This document shows positions 3,732 through 11,666 of a stretch of 64,000 bases of DNA, one piece after another; positions within the stretch are counted from its first letter, which is position 1; each line of letters begins with the position of its first letter. The notes under the pieces are model-generated. The model had not been told where the DNA came from. It ran no database searches and saw nothing but the letters and a program-made list of their open reading frames with translations. Origin of the DNA: Bacteroidetes bacterium ADurb.Bin217 (lineage in GTDB: Bacteria; Bacteroidota; Bacteroidia; Bacteroidales; UBA1715); the NCBI GenBank assembly GCA_002069975.1, contig MWCJ01000001.1, forward strand, positions 62,001 through 126,000, in the 5' to 3' direction. The translations under genes and the position numbers were made by a program.

Positions 3732-5033
3732 TTACAGATTTTTTAAATACATAAGGGCATTATAGTTAGCTTCAATTGTTCGTTCAATGTCTTGAGTAGA
3801 GTGAGCAATTGAAATAAAAGCAGCTTCGAATTGCGAAGGAGCTAAATATATACCGTTGTCGCGTGAGAATGAATAAAATGCCGCATATTTTTTAGTGTCA
3901 CACGTGCAAACATCTTGATATGTTTTGATTTCAGAAGAATCTGTAAAAAATAAGGTAAACATAGAACCTACCCGATTGCAAACAGCCGCTACTCCTGTTT
4001 TTTTTATATTTTCCCTAATGCCTTCAACAAGCAGTATAGATTTTTCTTCTAATTCGGTATAAAAATGAGGATTATTTTTAATCGTAGATAATGTAGTATA
4101 TCCAGCCGTCATTGCTAAAGGGTTGCCGGAAAGAGTTCCGGCTTGGTAAATTGGACCTTGAGGCGACAAGTTATCCATTAAATGTTTTTTTCCACCATAG
4201 GCACCAACAGGTAATCCACCTCCAATAATTTTACCTAATGTTGTAATATCGGGTACAATATCATACAATTCCTGTGCACCACCTTGAGCTACACGAAAGC
4301 CTGTCATAACTTCATCAAAAATTAATAAAGCTTCGTAAATATCACAAATTTCGCGTAATTGTTGTAAAAATTTACGATTGGGTACCACTACCCCCATATT
4401 ACCGGGGATAGGTTCTACAATAATAGCAGCTATATCTTCACCATATAATCTAAATGCATTGTGTACCGATTCAAAATCGTTGAATTGAGCCACAATAGTG
4501 TCTTTTGCAGTAGAAGCTGTAACACCCGGAGAATTTGGTGTGCTTAACGTAAGAGCACCTGACCCTGCTTGGATAAGAAAACTATCGTGATGGCCGTGGT
4601 AACAGCCTTCGAATTTAATAACTTTATCGCGTTTGGTATATCCACGAGCGAGTCGTAATGCACTCATGGTAGCTTCGGTACCGGAATTAACCATTCGAAC
4701 CGATTCTATATGTGGCATCATACTACAGATTAACTCAGCCATTTGAGTTTCCCAAAGAGTTGGTGCACCAAAACTAGTACCTTGTTGAGCACAATTACAT
4801 AACGCTTCAATTACTTTTGGGTGAGTGTGCCCTAAAATCATAGGACCCCACGAGCCGACATAATCAATATAGGAATTACCATCAATATCGTTTATGTATG
4901 CCCCATGTGCCGAAGCAATAAACACGGGGTTTTCACCAACACTTTTGCACGAACGTACCGGTGAATTTACACCGCCTGGAATAACTTCTATTGCACGAGA
5001 GAAAGCTTCGATACTTTTAGAATAAGAATTCAT
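3732..5033 (-). CDS. hemL: Glutamate-1-semialdehyde 2,1-aminomutase
   Basis: A PLP enzyme of the C5 pathway that converts glutamate-1-semialdehyde to 5-aminolevulinate, the first dedicated tetrapyrrole precursor. At 433 residues it has the usual length. The PLP-binding lysine is expected at K268 in [18 protein letters not shown], and the cofactor-binding FDEVMTGFR motif lies near residue 240. Its presence implies ALA synthesis from glutamyl-tRNA. It lies 14 bp downstream of purN and 2 bp upstream of hemE. Confidence 0.97.
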
Positions 5034-5047
5034 GAGCTATAGTTTAT

Positions 5048-5620
5048 CTATTTTTGCAAACTTACAATGTATTCTTGAATTACGCGAGGAAAATGTTCAT
5101 ATTCTAATGCATGAACTTTATCGGCAACTATTTCGGGTGTATCAGCAGGTAGTACGTCGCACGTAGCTTGAAATAAAATAGTACCGTTGTCATATATTTC
5201 ATCAACCAAGTGAATAGTAATACCGGTTTTAGATTCTTTGTTTTGCACTACAGCTCTGTGTACATGCATTCCATACATACCTTTGCCTCCATAATTGGGG
5301 AGGAGAGCAGGGTGGATATTAATAATTCGTTGTTGGTATGCTTTAATAATATTGGTTGGCATAAGGAGTAAAAAGCCCGCCAAAACTATATATTCGACAT
5401 CATCTGCTTGAAGTTGATTGAGTATCGAAATAGATTCATATAAGTCTGTTTTTGAAAACACACAAACCGGAATTGAGTATTCGTTAGCAATAGAAATAAC
5501 TCCCGCTTGGGCGTTATTTGTATAAATTCGCACAATTGTAACGTTTGTATGCGTATAATGTTGTAGTAAATTTTTAGCATTTGTACCCGAACCCGAGGCG
5601 AAAATTGCAATTTTTGTCAT
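5048..5620 (-). CDS. purN: Phosphoribosylglycinamide formyltransferase (GART)
   Basis: A purine biosynthesis enzyme that transfers the formyl group of 10-formyl-THF to GAR. It has 190 residues. Conserved features are the N-terminal FASGSGTN phosphate-binding loop and the catalytic triad N101, H103 (in IINIHPALLP) and D144. It is the first gene of the minus-strand run that continues into hemL and hemE. A good -7 promoter element lies just upstream at 5657-5664. Confidence 0.96.
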   Translation of the reverse strand: MTKIAIFASGSGTNAKNLLQHYTHTNVTIVRIYTNNAQAGVISIANEYSIPVCVFSKTDLYESISILNQLQADDVEYIVLAGFLLLMPTNIIKAYQQRIINIHPALLPNYGGKGMYGMHVHRAVVQNKESKTGITIHLVDEIYDNGTILFQATCDVLPADTPEIVADKVHALEYEHFPRVIQEYIVSLQK

Positions 5621-5656
5621 GTAATAATGAATAACTTGTTAATAACTTCGAAAGTG

Positions 5657-5664
5657 CAAAAATA
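5657..5664 (-). promoter_or_regulatory. -7 promoter element for purN-hemL-hemE
   Basis: Read on the minus strand this is TATTTTTG, an exact match to the Bacteroidota -7 consensus TAnnTTTG, about 37 bp upstream of the purN start. I see no convincing -33 TTTG at the standard distance. Because the following genes are nearly gapless, this may drive the whole run down to the FecR locus. Confidence 0.5.
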
Positions 5665-5801
5665 TAAATAATTGATTATCAGAAAACAGAAAAAATAAAT
5701 AAAAAAAATTTATTAGTTTTTTCTTTTTTGAATAAAAAAAAATATAGTTATTTGCAGCATAAAATTAATTTAAATTATTATTAACTAAAAATTTAAAAAC
5801 T

Positions 5802-6038
5802 ATGTCAGAAATTGCATCAAAAGTACAAGCAATCATTGTAGACAAGTTAGGTGTTGACGCTAGCGAAGTAACTCCTGAGGCTAATTTTACAAACGATTTA
5901 GGAGCGGACTCATTAGACACTGTAGAATTAATTATGGAATTCGAAAAAGAATTCAACATTGCTATCCCAGATGAGCAAGCCGAAGGTATTGCAACAGTAG
6001 GTGACGCAATTTCTTACATCGAGAAAAACTCGAAGTAA
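5802..6038 (+). CDS. acpP: Acyl carrier protein
   Basis: A protein of 78 residues that carries growing acyl chains on a 4'-phosphopantetheine arm in type II fatty acid synthesis. The attachment serine is S37 in the classic [16 protein letters not shown] motif. It is followed 25 bp later by fabF, the common acpP-fabF pairing. Confidence 0.98.
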
Positions 6039-6063
6039 TCAGTATTTACTTTATTTTCAATTT

Positions 6064-7317
6064 ATGGAATTAAAAAGAGTAGTGGTAACCGGAATCGGTG
6101 CTTTCACTCCTATTGGAAATACGGTAGAAGAAATTTTTAAAAATCTCAAAAATGGAGTAAGTGGTAGTGCACCTATCACTTACTTCAATACTGAGAAATT
6201 TAAAACAAAATTTGCCTGTGAGGTTAAAAATTTTGATATTTCTCTCTACGTAGACCGTAAGGAAGCCCGAAAAATGGATCCATACGCACACTTTGCTATG
6301 GCTGCCGCGGCGGAATGCCTACAAGATTCAAAATTACAATTAGACACAATAGACCTTGATAGTATTGGTGTTATTTGGGGTTCGGGAATAGGTGGATTAA
6401 CTACCTTCCAAACTGAAGTTACAGCATTTGCACAAGGAGATGGGACACCACGTTTTAATCCATTCTTTATCCCAAAAATGATTTCTAATATAGCTGCCGG
6501 CTATATTTCAATCCGATACGGACTTCGTGGTGCAAGTTATGCAACAACATCTGCTTGTGCATCATCGACGCATGCTATGATAGATGCCTTTAACTATATA
6601 AGATTAGGTAAAGCGAAAGCATATATTACGGGTGGTTCAGAAGCAACAATCAACGAAAGTGGAGTTGGTGGTTTCAATGCCATGAAAGCATTATCTGAAA
6701 ACAACGATGAAATGGTAAGTGCGTCTCGTCCTTTTGATGGAACTCGTGATGGGTTTGTTATGGGTGAAGGTGGCGTTGCCTTATTATTTGAAGAATACGA
6801 ACATGCTATTGCACGTGGTGCAAAAATTTATGCAGAGGTAGCCGGAGGAGGCATGAGTTCTGATGCTCACCATTTAACAGCTCCACATCCTGAAGGTTTA
6901 GGTGCTGGAAATGTAATGAAATGGGCAATTGAAGATGCCGGTATTAAATTAACCGATATCGATTATATAAATGTTCATGGTACTGCAACTCCACTAGGTG
7001 ATATTGCAGAGACCAATGCAATTATAAAATTGTTTGGTGATCATGCCTATAAATTAAATATTAGTTCTACTAAATCTATGACCGGTCACTTACTTGGTGC
7101 TGCCGGTGCTATGGAAACAGTAGCTTCTATATTTGCTTTGCAAACAGGTATTGTCCCTCCAACTATCAATTTCAAAGAGGCTGATCCTAATATTGACAGT
7201 AAATTAAATTTAACACTTAATGAGGCTCAACAGCGTAACGTAGAGTATGCATTAAGCAATACATTTGGTTTTGGTGGTCACAACGGATCAATAATATTGA
7301 AAAAATATAAAGGATAA
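6064..7317 (+). CDS. fabF: 3-oxoacyl-[ACP] synthase II
   Basis: The elongating condensing enzyme of fatty acid synthesis, with 417 residues from the ATG at 6064 (MELKRVVVTGIGAFTPIG). An upstream in-frame start at 6001 lies inside acpP and is rejected because the KAS family begins with the RVVVTG strand. The catalytic triad is C165 (in TTSACASS), H305 (in VHGTATPLGD) and H342 (in TKSMTGHLLGAAG). It lies between acpP and rnc, and its likely terminator is the hairpin at 7353-7391 inside the beginning of rnc. Confidence 0.97.
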   Translation: MELKRVVVTGIGAFTPIGNTVEEIFKNLKNGVSGSAPITYFNTEKFKTKFACEVKNFDISLYVDRKEARKMDPYAHFAMAAAAECLQDSKLQLDTIDLDSIGVIWGSGIGGLTTFQTEVTAFAQGDGTPRFNPFFIPKMISNIAAGYISIRYGLRGASYATTSACASSTHAMIDAFNYIRLGKAKAYITGGSEATINESGVGGFNAMKALSENNDEMVSASRPFDGTRDGFVMGEGGVALLFEEYEHAIARGAKIYAEVAGGGMSSDAHHLTAPHPEGLGAGNVMKWAIEDAGIKLTDIDYINVHGTATPLGDIAETNAIIKLFGDHAYKLNISSTKSMTGHLLGAAGAMETVASIFALQTGIVPPTINFKEADPNIDSKLNLTLNEAQQRNVEYALSNTFGFGGHNGSIILKKYKG

Positions 7318-7329
7318 TTCATTTTTTTT

Positions 7330-8055
7330 GTGCGTATCCTAAAATACATAAGACTCCTTTTTTGTAAGCCTACAGAAAAGGAGTTTTTTTTGCAATTATG
7401 TTATTTGCTCGGTTATATGCCGAAAAATATTAAGTATTACCGTAAAGCATTTACTCACAAATCGTCGGTAACATCGTCTGATAAACATAAGCAATACAAT
7501 GAACGATTGGAATTTCTTGGCGATTGCATTATTGATGCTATTATTGCCGATTATTTGTTCCAAAAATATCCCAATGAATCTGAAGGATTTCTCACAAAAA
7601 TGAAATCTAAAATTGTAAACAGAAAATCACTCAATCAAATAGCTGTGCAATTACATTTAGATTCGTATTTGCAATCTAATATAGCTAATGTAAAAGAAAA
7701 TGACGCGTTAGGTAATGCTTTTGAAGCTCTTATTGGAGCAATGTATCTCGATAAAGGGTTTGACTTTACCAAACAGTATTTTATTTCTAAAATAATAGAA
7801 CGATTTTTTGATATTAGCTTTTTGGAGGCTAATGATACAAATTACAAAAGTCAACTTTTAGAAATAGTTCAAAAAAAGAAACAAACAATAGTGTTTGATT
7901 CAGAAGGTGTAGAGCCGGGACCCGAAAATTCATCGCAATTTGTGTCTATTATTAAAATTGATAATGTTGCAGTTGCTACAGCCAAAGCGTCAACAAAAAA
8001 AGAGGCAGAACAGCGGGCTTCAAAAATTGTGATTGAAAGTATGAATATTCATTAG
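7330..8055 (+). CDS. rnc: Ribonuclease III
   Basis: A double-strand-specific endoribonuclease that processes rRNA and structured mRNAs. It has 241 residues from a GTG at 7330, 12 bp after fabF. The catalytic signature ERLEFLGDCIIDAI and the acidic FEALIGAMYLD segment are intact, and a C-terminal dsRNA-binding domain covers about residues 165-238. I keep the GTG start because the N-terminal extension (RLLFCKPTEKEF before LGYMPKNI) looks like the extension I recall in other Bacteroidota RNase III proteins. The next in-frame start is an ATG at 7417 (M30). This matters because a strong terminator hairpin occupies codons 8-20 of the longer reading. Confidence 0.92.
   Translation: MRILKYIRLLFCKPTEKEFFLQLCYLLGYMPKNIKYYRKAFTHKSSVTSSDKHKQYNERLEFLGDCIIDAIIADYLFQKYPNESEGFLTKMKSKIVNRKSLNQIAVQLHLDSYLQSNIANVKENDALGNAFEALIGAMYLDKGFDFTKQYFISKIIERFFDISFLEANDTNYKSQLLEIVQKKKQTIVFDSEGVEPGPENSSQFVSIIKIDNVAVATAKASTKKEAEQRASKIVIESMNIH
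7353..7391 (+). terminator. Intrinsic terminator inside the 5' end of rnc (downstream of fabF)
   Basis: The arms 7353-7366 and 7371-7384 form a 14-bp stem with one G-U wobble and the tetraloop AGCC, followed directly by a run of T residues (7384-7391). This is a textbook rho-independent terminator on the plus strand, 36 bp after the fabF stop. It lies in frame within rnc if the GTG at 7330 is the start. Confidence 0.85.
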
Positions 8056-8133
8056 GAATTTGTTTCCCAAAAACAATAAACTTTTTGAAAATAAGTATTA
8101 ATTGCTGCTATTAAATCTGACTATTTTTATAAG

Positions 8134-8205
8134 TAGTCTCGCCGGGAATCGAACCCGAATTTAAAGTTTAGGAAACTTTCGTTCTATCCATTGAACTACA
8201 AGACC
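8134..8205 (-). tRNA. tRNA-Arg (anticodon CCU)
   Basis: A cloverleaf can be folded on the minus strand. The acceptor is GGTCTTG with CGAGACT (including G-U pairs), the D stem is GTTC/GAAC, the anticodon stem is AAAGT/ACTTT with loop TTCCTAA (anticodon CCT), and the T arm carries GGGTTCGATTCCC. The length is 72 nt with discriminator A and no encoded CCA. It should read AGG codons. It stands alone between rnc and the phosphatase gene. Confidence 0.93.
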
Positions 8206-8221
8206 ATTTTTTAATTCCATG

Positions 8222-8229
8222 CAAAAATA
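8222..8229 (-). promoter_or_regulatory. -7 promoter element for tRNA-Arg
   Basis: The minus-strand sequence is TATTTTTG, an exact TAnnTTTG match 17 bp upstream of the tRNA 5' end. It is back to back with the plus-strand element at 8264-8271. Confidence 0.5.
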
Positions 8230-8263
8230 CATATTTGTTGCGTATTCATATTGTGTTTTTTTG

Positions 8264-8271
8264 TACTTTTG
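8264..8271 (+). promoter_or_regulatory. -7 promoter element for the alkaline phosphatase gene
   Basis: TACTTTTG matches TAnnTTTG. TTG trinucleotides lie upstream, at slightly wide spacing. It implies a leader of about 130 nt before the ATG at 8409. I see no recognisable riboswitch in the leader. Confidence 0.4.
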
Positions 8272-8408
8272 TGTATCAATTCCGAAAATTATTTTACATA
8301 TGAAGCTCTCATACTTTTTTTTATAAATTATTTTATTATAATTACTTATAAAAAGTTCATGGCTACTTGTAATGAGGGTTGATGTTAAACCTATAAAAAA
8401 CTTATTAA

Positions 8409-11400
8409 ATGAAACGTTTTTGTATTATTTTATTTTTATGTGCTTGTGCCATTGGTGTTCAAGCTCAATCTAATCCCAAAAATATAATTATTGTAATGGC
8501 TCATGGCATGGGCTATAATCATGTAAATGCTCTTGAATTATCCAATGGTAGCCAACAGCCTTTACTTTGGCAAACCTATCCGGTAAAGTATGGTGTTACA
8601 AATTATCCAGCATATTGGGCTTCAATAACAGAAGCTAAAGATGTTTCGAAGTATAAAGGTGATTATCATATTCGGAGAATTTGGAGTGATTTTACCTATA
8701 CTAATGCTATGGTAGTAGACCCTGCTGCCGTTGGTACCGCAATAGCAACCGGTAAAAAGTCTGCATATAAAGCTGTTGGGGTCGATATAGATAGTACACA
8801 TTTGGAAACTGTGTTAGAGCGAGCTTTTTCACTTGGAAAGGCAACGGGTATTGTTACCGATATGGCGTTATCTACCTCTGCTGCTGCATCGTTTGCAGCT
8901 CACTATCCTACATGCGATAGCTCACGTACCGTATTTAATCAATTGTTGGGTTCATCGTTATATGTAATGATTGGTGCCGGAAATCCTCAATTTGAAAATA
9001 ATGGAACAACACGTACTATTCCCGAATACTCATATATATCATCTGTCGATTGGGATGCTTTAGTACAAGGTGCATCTTTATACGATAATGCAACTCAAGC
9101 TCAAGATATTGATAATGATAATGTGCCCGATGCATGGACATTAGTGCAATCTAAAGAAGATATTTTGAATTCTCAAGCAAAACGAATTATTGCTATTCCT
9201 CAAACATTTGATGCATTGCAATATAAACGAGCTTCGTCTGCGTTAGTACAAAATGTGCCACTATTGTCTGAGCTAACTCAAAAAAGTTTAAGTGTGTTGC
9301 AATCCCATACACAAGGATTTGTGTTGGTTGTAGAATCCGGAGCTGTTGACTATGCTTCGAGAATGGGCCAAAATGCTGCTATTGTTGAAAATATGCAAGA
9401 GCTTGATGCAACTATTACAGCCATAAATAATTGGGTAGAAATAAACAGTTCATGGGAAGAATCATTAGTTATTGTTGTAGGTACATACGAAAGCGGTTTC
9501 CTGTCGGGTATGGATTTTTCAAGTAGTGCCGGACACCCCGATTTTTACACGAAAACTATACACGTTACGCAAGGAGAAACCGGTGAAATACCAAGTATGA
9601 AATGTAATAGTACACAACCAACGAATTTGCTTACCCCATTATTTGCAAAAGGTGTCGGTAGTGAATTATTTTCGCACTATACCGATGAGGAAGATTTTGT
9701 ATATGGAAAGTATATAAATAATAGTGAAATAGGACAAATATGTATGCGATTATTGCCAACTCCGGCAACAACCCCCAAAACACCTAAAAATATTATTCTT
9801 ATGATTAACGATGGTGTAGGATTGAATCAAATACGAGCCGCAAATTATTATACAGGTAAAAATCAACAATACGAACAATTTCCGGTAACTTTATTTCATA
9901 GTACGTATCCATTAGTAAGTAGCGAAACTGTTAATTTTGGAGGATATAATAATTCGTATGAATCTACTTTAGCTTGGACAAATGGATTGTATTTGCGAAA
10001 TAGAACAAATGCAACATGCTCAGGAGCTTCGGGTACGGCTATAGCGTCGGGAACTAAAACATATTATTATGGTTTAGGTGTTGATATTAATAAAAATGCC
10101 GTGCAAACAATAGCTCGACATGCTAAATCTATGGGGAAATCTGTTGGGGTTGCAACAAATATACCCGTGTCTGATGCTACACCTGCTGTGTTTTTTGCAA
10201 ATAATGTAAGTCGTAATAATGCTCCCGAAATTATGCGACAATTAATTATAGAATCTAAAGCTGATGTAATTATTGGCGGTGGACATCCTGAATATGATAA
10301 TCATGGTATTTTGCTTACGAATCCCGATTATAAATCAATAGGGGGGCAAGAATTTTGGGAAGATATTAAAGCGGGTGCAACTCAATACCGAACGCCTTCA
10401 AATTCGGGGTGGACAGAAGTTCAAGATATAGATAATGATGGCACTCCCGATCCTTGGACGTTAATAGAAGATAGTATAGATTTTGCAAAATATGCATATG
10501 AACCAACACCTAAAAGAGTTTTGGGTATAGCAAAAGTAGAAAGTTCAATGCAATTTTATAGAACCGGTATTGATAAACAATCAGTACATTTTGATGATCT
10601 AAATTCTACTATGCCTGCTTTATGGCAAATAGCTCGAGTAGGTTTGCAAACTGTAAATAATAATCCAAACGGATTCTTTTTAATGATTGAGGGTGATGCA
10701 GCCGATAATGCCGGACATCAAAATTATAAAGGAAGATTAATTGAAGAAATGATTTCGTTTAATACTGCTGTAGATACTGTAATAGCTTGGATTGAACAAC
10801 ATGGTGGTTGGGACGAAAATTTACTTATTATTACTTCCGATCACGAAACCGGTTTGCTTGCTCATCCCGATCTTGACACCGATTCAAGTATGCTTACCCA
10901 TTATGATATTATTGATAATGGAGTAGGTGTAATGCCGGGTATGAAATTTTATGCAACACATCATTCTAATCAGTTAGTACCTATATATGCAAAAGGTGCT
11001 GGAGCTGAATTGCTGTGGAACTATGCTGATGAACATGATGTAATACGTGGCAAATTTTTAAATAATAGTGAAATTGGACAAGCTATGTTTACCTTGTGGA
11101 ATGGAACTCCTTGTTCTGTAGTTAATAATAGGGTAATGATAGTTAAACAAATCCCAACTGTTGAGTTATTGGTTGGAAGAGATACAGCATTTTCAATTAT
11201 AAATGATTTTTATGATGATATTGAAGATTCTGAATTACAGTTTAAAATAACTACTCGACCATCGTGGTTGCAATATGATTTGACTGATTTTTCGTTTTCG
11301 GGAACTCCTCTATCTGCAGGTTTGTTTACTGTAAAAATAATAATTTCCGATGGGAAAACATCTGGAGCTTCTATAGCTTCGGAAACAACGTTTACTATTA

Positions 11401-11666
11401 TTGTTAGAGATGTAAGTTCCATACAAGATGTAGCAAATACAAAAGCATATGCATATCCTGTTCCTTCGAGTATAGTGTTGCATGTGCAAAATGTTGAGGC
11501 ACAAAGTACACTCCGTTTATACAATACAATGGGAGTGTGTATGTATTCTAAACACATTGAGGCTACGTCAGAATCAATTGATATAAGCTCTTTTGCTCCC
11601 GGAAATTATACTTTAGAAGTACGAAATGCCAATCAAACAATAACGCAACCTATAGTAATTAAATAA
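8409..11666 (+). CDS. Secreted double alkaline phosphatase-domain protein, N-terminal domain degenerate, T9SS tail
   Basis: A protein of 1085 residues: a signal peptide (to about A19), alkaline phosphatase-like domain 1 (about 24-450), domain 2 (about 460-900), a putative Ig-like domain (about 915-1000) and a type IX secretion sorting domain (about 1012-1085). Domain 2 keeps the family residues: metal ligand D468, nucleophile candidate S538 in CSGASGTA, E761/D763/D766/H770, D811-H812 and a His at 851-852. At the matching sites domain 1 has H32 instead of Asp, P105 instead of the nucleophilic Ser (VDPAAVGTA), T359-Y360 instead of Asp-His, and no final His. Both domains contain a D-I-D-N-D-x-x-P-D-x-W-T-L segment at matching places, so they arose by duplication. 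Expected activity is hydrolysis of phosphate monoesters at the cell surface by domain 2. Nearly touching the next gene, it is probably co-transcribed with it. Confidence 0.9.
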   Translation: MKRFCIILFLCACAIGVQAQSNPKNIIIVMAHGMGYNHVNALELSNGSQQPLLWQTYPVKYGVTNYPAYWASITEAKDVSKYKGDYHIRRIWSDFTYTNAMVVDPAAVGTAIATGKKSAYKAVGVDIDSTHLETVLERAFSLGKATGIVTDMALSTSAAASFAAHYPTCDSSRTVFNQLLGSSLYVMIGAGNPQFENNGTTRTIPEYSYISSVDWDALVQGASLYDNATQAQDIDNDNVPDAWTLVQSKEDILNSQAKRIIAIPQTFDALQYKRASSALVQNVPLLSELTQKSLSVLQSHTQGFVLVVESGAVDYASRMGQNAAIVENMQELDATITAINNWVEINSSWEESLVIVVGTYESGFLSGMDFSSSAGHPDFYTKTIHVTQGETGEIPSMKCNSTQPTNLLTPLFAKGVGSELFSHYTDEEDFVYGKYINNSEIGQICMRLLPTPATTPKTPKNIILMINDGVGLNQIRAANYYTGKNQQYEQFPVTLFHSTYPLVSSETVNFGGYNNSYESTLAWTNGLYLRNRTNATCSGASGTAIASGTKTYYYGLGVDINKNAVQTIARHAKSMGKSVGVATNIPVSDATPAVFFANNVSRNNAPEIMRQLIIESKADVIIGGGHPEYDNHGILLTNPDYKSIGGQEFWEDIKAGATQYRTPSNSGWTEVQDIDNDGTPDPWTLIEDSIDFAKYAYEPTPKRVLGIAKVESSMQFYRTGIDKQSVHFDDLNSTMPALWQIARVGLQTVNNNPNGFFLMIEGDAADNAGHQNYKGRLIEEMISFNTAVDTVIAWIEQHGGWDENLLIITSDHETGLLAHPDLDTDSSMLTHYDIIDNGVGVMPGMKFYATHHSNQLVPIYAKGAGAELLWNYADEHDVIRGKFLNNSEIGQAMFTLWNGTPCSVVNNRVMIVKQIPTVELLVGRDTAFSIINDFYDDIEDSELQFKITTRPSWLQYDLTDFSFSGTPLSAGLFTVKIIISDGKTSGASIASETTFTIIVRDVSSIQDVANTKAYAYPVPSSIVLHVQNVEAQSTLRLYNTMGVCMYSKHIEATSESIDISSFAPGNYTLEVRNANQTITQPIVIK

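Follow-up and report, generated by a model that had tools for sequence, protein, structure and literature searches.

The first codons of rnc at this locus contain a hairpin followed by a run of T residues, i.e. the appearance of an intrinsic terminator inside a coding sequence. The question raised by this arrangement is whether the hairpin terminates transcription behind fabF, whether it is a by-product of the encoded protein, or whether it is an RNA element with a role in the expression of RNase III, the product of the gene in which it lies.

The acpP-fabF-rnc locus and the rnc start codon

The locus was analyzed within a 64-kb window, which is the whole stretch of DNA under consideration. 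Its relevant features are as follows.

5802–6038, plus strand: acpP, acyl carrier protein (Pfam PP-binding)
6064–7317, plus strand: fabF, 3-oxoacyl-ACP synthase II, ATG at 6064 and stop codon at 7315–7317 (Pfam ketoacyl-synt N and C)
6153–6187, plus strand: second hairpin of the operon, within fabF codons 30–42, kept across the family with compensatory changes
7330–8055, plus strand: rnc, RNase III, 241 aa, GTG start (TIGR02191 and Pfam domains; start position conserved in relatives)
7350–7387, plus strand: site A hairpin in rnc (fold, synonymous shuffle, covariation and covariance-model match)
7384–7391, plus strand: T8 run 3' of the site A stem, terminator-like and also Phe-Phe-Leu codons of rnc

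The three genes presumably constitute one operon in which acpP is the first gene and fabF lies upstream of rnc. The rnc product matched TIGR02191 with 181.6 bits (cut-off 166.25) and both the RNase III and dsRNA-binding domains of Pfam, and an NERLEFLGD motif is visible in the translation. On the basis of these two domains, the equivalog match and the motif, rnc is predicted to encode a catalytically complete RNase III. A tRNA-Arg (CCT) gene lies directly downstream of rnc on the minus strand (8133–8205). Positions 8409–11666 encode a protein of the secreted type (1085 aa) that carries a Por secretion tail and matches alkaline phosphatase in Pfam; this protein apparently contains two phosphatase halves within one chain.

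The first-pass annotation of this DNA had left two rnc start codons in play: GTG 7330, which places the hairpin within the open reading frame, and ATG 7417 (M30), in which case a terminator would simply separate the genes. The protein segment preceding M30 is conserved in relatives, as three genera of the window's family share LLFCKxxEKEFF..LLGYxP and other lineages contain IRLLF..KE.Y-type segments before the equivalent position. Moreover, solved RNase III structures match the rnc product from query residue 22 onward. We rejected ATG 7417 because a start at this codon would delete conserved residues that these structures match. Of 39 hairpin loci that were tabulated, most have a candidate start exactly −90 from the P31 codon, which is the place of GTG 7330. 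The best start codon is GTG in 25 of these loci, TTG in 9 and ATG in 5, and it usually lies 1–12 nt behind the fabF stop codon; in nearly all hairpin loci fabF ends ~90–104 nt before the P31 codon. From the conserved upstream segment and the constant start position in relatives we conclude that GTG 7330 is the best candidate for the rnc start. As the start at this position is conserved, the hairpin sits in translated sequence, and the reading in which it merely separates two genes is contradicted. Annotators should therefore not trim the rnc start to ATG 7417, as the apparent terminator is coding sequence. The weak rnc starts close after the fabF stop codon hint at translational coupling. GTG and TTG starts close behind the fabF stop codon predominate in Bacteroidales rnc even without the hairpin (93 of 124 loci).

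A 17-bp hairpin within the first codons of rnc

A 14-bp hairpin with a tetraloop and a T run had been described at 7353–7391 within the rnc codons, and our fold, stem scan and shuffle results agree with both the coordinates and the description. The sequence ACTCCTTTTTTGTA-AGCC-TACAGAAAAGGAGT at 7353–7384 contains 14 pairs, one of them G-U, and the stem runs on into TTTTTTTT (7384–7391). The hairpin from 7353 onward begins 35 nt after the fabF stop codon and, with its T run, spans rnc codons 8–21 counted from GTG 7330. In addition, U7384–7387 are able to pair with 7350–7353, resulting in a 17-bp stem of −19.6 kcal/mol when folded alone. We refer to this structure, with arms at 7350–7366 and 7371–7387 and a loop at 7367–7370 (rnc codons 7–20), as site A.

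Site A is one of only seven stems scoring at least 28 in the stem scan of the window, and three of the other high-scoring stems sit just behind open reading frames, like ordinary terminators. A consensus terminator scan of the window did not detect the site A hairpin, probably as the T run is taken up into the longer stem. A search of positions 5000–9000 with the Rfam 15 covariance models (E threshold up to 5) identified only a tRNA and nothing on the hairpin. When the codons of the window locus were shuffled synonymously, the native fold had a z of −6.25. A covariance model of site A derived from relatives, with the window locus included, gave 49.5 bits (E 5.6e-6) at this locus, the top match in the 3.1-Mb genome. 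Two genomes of the window's genus differ by synonymous changes in the flanks of the hairpin, and no change at an arm position breaks a pair.

Conservation of site A in Bacteroidales

We collected rnc 5' regions from the window's family and from the order Bacteroidales, the genomes often being MAGs. The first-pass annotation had proposed a comparison of the rnc 5' end across relatives; within the family the protein N-terminus proved to be conserved and the hairpin was kept in three of four genera. The remaining genus, g3, has no site A hairpin, though its protein segment is similar. Across the order, a hairpin of ~36–46 nt in the same codons was found in 54 of 175 rnc loci belonging to at least 21 family-level groups, compared to 0 of 875 matched control positions. 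The stem scan likewise located strong stems of many families within one common 40-nt interval, approximately −68 to −29 relative to the P31 codon.

Synonymous shuffling, which holds the protein fixed and for which codon usage was taken from local genes plus a pooled prior, yielded z < −3 at the place of site A in 43 of 163 loci order-wide. In fabF, such values were obtained in only 12 of 1295 windows, and farther down rnc in 14 of 815. The mean z of the site A group was −5.8.

The arms of site A differ greatly between families, e.g. AATAAGGCTCTT, AATAAAACTTCTT, AAATAAGATTTTTGGG and ACTCCTTTTTTG. When 35 distinct hairpins were aligned, changes on both sides were present in 14 of 17 pairs, and 115 double-change cells were observed vs 35 expected from shuffles. 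Shifting the partner by one to three columns reduced pairing from 92% to 49–63%; the loci for these pair counts were picked by stem strength, which inflates the percentage paired, a bias from which the shuffle and control tests are free. Mismatches in the core consisted of 41 G-U and 6 A-C, and this excess of G-U speaks for the sense RNA, and not the DNA, as the relevant molecule. In the window's family, 6 nt are inserted near the loop, and a T run takes the place of the lower stem of the others. We conclude that the site A hairpin is independent of protein constraint and deeply conserved, with compensatory changes on the sense strand. Codons of a conserved enzyme are here under strong selection at the level of the RNA.

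In a covariance-model search of 393 Bacteroidales genomes, the best 30 places were all at rnc. Weaker matches elsewhere lie outside rnc and have the look of terminators, and a few places outside rnc reach ~50 bits with the site A model, which is unspecific at lower scores. None of 28 rnc loci from other orders of the class contained site A. We also considered whether site A is shared throughout the phylum and rejected this possibility, since all matches of at least 40 bits outside Bacteroidales lie outside rnc and look like terminators, and the rnc loci of the other orders of the class are without site A.

A second hairpin site in rnc

A scan of the whole gene identified a second rnc hairpin, site B, in lineages without site A. 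Site B is centered at the P31 codon (−22 to +15), ~48 nt downstream of site A; one example is AAAAAATATTTTCGGG-TTTTAT-CCCGAAAATATTTTTT. It was present in 34 of the 175 Bacteroidales loci (e.g. L038, L064, L107 and L159); two loci carried both sites and 89 neither. The evidence for site B is of the same kind as for site A: z was below −3 in 27 of 32 loci, covariation was found in 8 of 16 pairs (32 double-change cells vs 6), and G-U mismatches outnumbered A-C by 41 to 10. Along the gene, shuffle z fell sharply at two places, A for one group of loci and B for the other; the rest of the profile was flat.

The two sites are nearly exclusive (Fisher p 0.0003, not corrected for phylogeny). In a quick tree from a single FastTree run, site B occurred mainly in one large clade and site A was scattered over the rest. 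Two further families of the class include a few genomes with site B at rnc, and a phylum-wide search with the site B model found nothing. We looked for a shared third hairpin place in rnc of the 89 loci without A or B, and none was found. These distributions, the sequence record of one order, suggest that a putative feedback site has been retained, lost and formed anew elsewhere within rnc.

Candidate functions of the rnc hairpins

The first-pass annotation described the window hairpin as a strong intrinsic terminator. As an intrinsic terminator or attenuator within rnc, the hairpin would end most fabF transcripts and let a fraction through; ribosomes at work on the first rnc codons would keep termination from occurring. 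Such an arrangement fits the normal demand for acpP-fabF products, which are required in greater quantity than that of rnc. The window stem, with four G-C pairs and a T8 run, resembles a Rho-independent terminator, and in the window's family generally a CTCC...GGAG stem is followed by 6–8 T among the 8 bases after GAG, much like the intergenic terminators of the phylum. However, a G-C-containing stem with a direct U tract was found in the window and its family only. Most other hairpin lineages have no free U tract after the stem; the same bases read CCTTATTC, TCTTATTT, TTTTATTT and the like, and pair, the pairing being kept by compensatory changes. Site B loci with a lost T run still keep pairing as well. 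The U tract is thus not conserved together with the stem in orthologues, and most other families keep the duplex alone; unlike a Rho-independent terminator, the window hairpin also lies within codons. As pairing is kept where the T residues are lost, the duplex, not the U tract, is the conserved feature. The T run of the window's family may follow partly from its Phe-Phe codons, and FF codons giving the T run also occur in several genus g3 relatives that have no hairpin. Termination may occur in the window itself, but we consider it unlikely that termination is the conserved function. By these comparisons the hairpin is more than a local terminator, and its terminator-like form is particular to the window's family.

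Control of rnc translation, in which the hairpin would hold up ribosomes shortly after initiation or be bound by an RNA-binding protein other than RNase III, would be in keeping with site A beginning ~22 nt after the conserved start and with start codons that are mostly weak GTG or TTG. Site B lies ~48 nt farther down, so spacing relative to the start is variable; neither of the predicted hairpins involves the start codon in pairing, and no arm sequence is common across families, which argues against a sequence-specific binder. We regard this role as rather improbable. It is highly improbable that the hairpin has no RNA function and reflects only the protein sequence or a DNA palindrome. The LLF and EKE codons are partly complementary by nature, and site B spans NIF...NIF. 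Nevertheless, synonymous shuffles rarely reach the observed stability, which rules out protein constraint alone, and genus g3 encodes a similar protein segment but has no hairpin. The excess of G-U over A-C rules out a DNA palindrome, and the pair of genomes from the window's genus retained every pair amid synonymous flank changes.

The first-pass annotation had also named the hairpin as a possible autoregulatory target of RNase III, and the deep conservation of the duplex favors this proposal. Duplex length is nearly constant (mostly 36–46 nt in all), whereas sequence and position vary, as expected for a dsRNA-specific reader, and the host gene encodes a dsRNA-specific nuclease. Because duplex length is constrained, sequence is free and position is movable, all within the mRNA of such a nuclease, a cis cleavage target is the best explanation, and the ~17-bp hairpin in rnc codons 7–20 probably acts in this way. 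The pattern suggests cleavage by RNase III of its own mRNA within the coding region as the likeliest mechanism, which would limit production of the enzyme. Two points count against this interpretation: neither site occurs in 89 of the 175 loci, among them those of genus g3 in the window's family, and a stem of 17 bp falls short of two helical turns, not every such stem being cut.

According to this model, rnc would be transcribed on an acpP-fabF-rnc mRNA and translated from the weak GTG start just behind the fabF stop codon. A cut in the hairpin would separate the start codon from the remainder of rnc, silencing this gene and sparing acpP-fabF. At times when RNase III is scarce or occupied elsewhere, ribosomes would get through and melt the hairpin. 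In the window's family, where a U tract has replaced the lower stem, the hairpin may double as a leaky terminator.

Comparison with known RNase III feedback sites

RNase III feedback has been described in a small number of model bacteria, with a different site in each. In Staphylococcus aureus, RNase III cuts its own rnc coding sequence, as shown in vitro and in vivo, and the feedback was proposed to act via a stem inside the coding sequence (Lioliou et al. 2012, PMC3386247). The Bacteroidales hairpin, known here from sequence, resembles this target in lying inside rnc codons; the S. aureus site is a long irregular helix near +296–306, in contrast to a regular 17-bp hairpin at nucleotides 21–58, or site B farther down. 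As cited in the same paper, absB (RNase III) of Streptomyces coelicolor is autoregulated via the coding region of its own transcript (Xu et al. 2008); this likeness comes from an unrelated organism. Escherichia coli rncO, also as cited there, provides feedback via a stem-loop in the gene's own mRNA (Matsunaga et al. 1996), although that stem-loop is in the 5' leader and not in codons, whereas rnc here follows fabF and has hardly any separate leader, if one at all.

In the open-access literature on RNase III or rnc in Bacteroides, in Bacteroidetes or with fabF, we found no description of the element, which is weak evidence of novelty. The element offers a directly testable candidate RNase III substrate in Bacteroidota, where we found none described.

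A hairpin inside fabF

The hairpin within fabF (6153–6187, 35 nt) is a strong stem with the sequence GGAGTAAGTGGTAGTGCACCTATCACTTACTTC, and it is a possible further target of RNase III in this operon. A broader proposal, which we put forward as speculative and doubtful, is that Bacteroidales keep a relocatable RNase III feedback element in the acpP-fabF-rnc codons, at A or B in rnc and, in the window's family, at another position in fabF. In that family the rnc element would be both a cleavage site and an intragenic terminator, and production of RNase III would require that ribosomes re-initiate after fabF and melt the hairpin. The fabF hairpin was kept in all 14 genomes of the window's family, including those of genus g3, which are without site A. 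Its arms contain double compensatory changes (e.g. GTAAGTG/CACTTAC, GTGAGTG/CACTCAC and ACGAGTG/CACTCGT), and other members of the order contributed 12 further strong stems that fall within this part of fabF.
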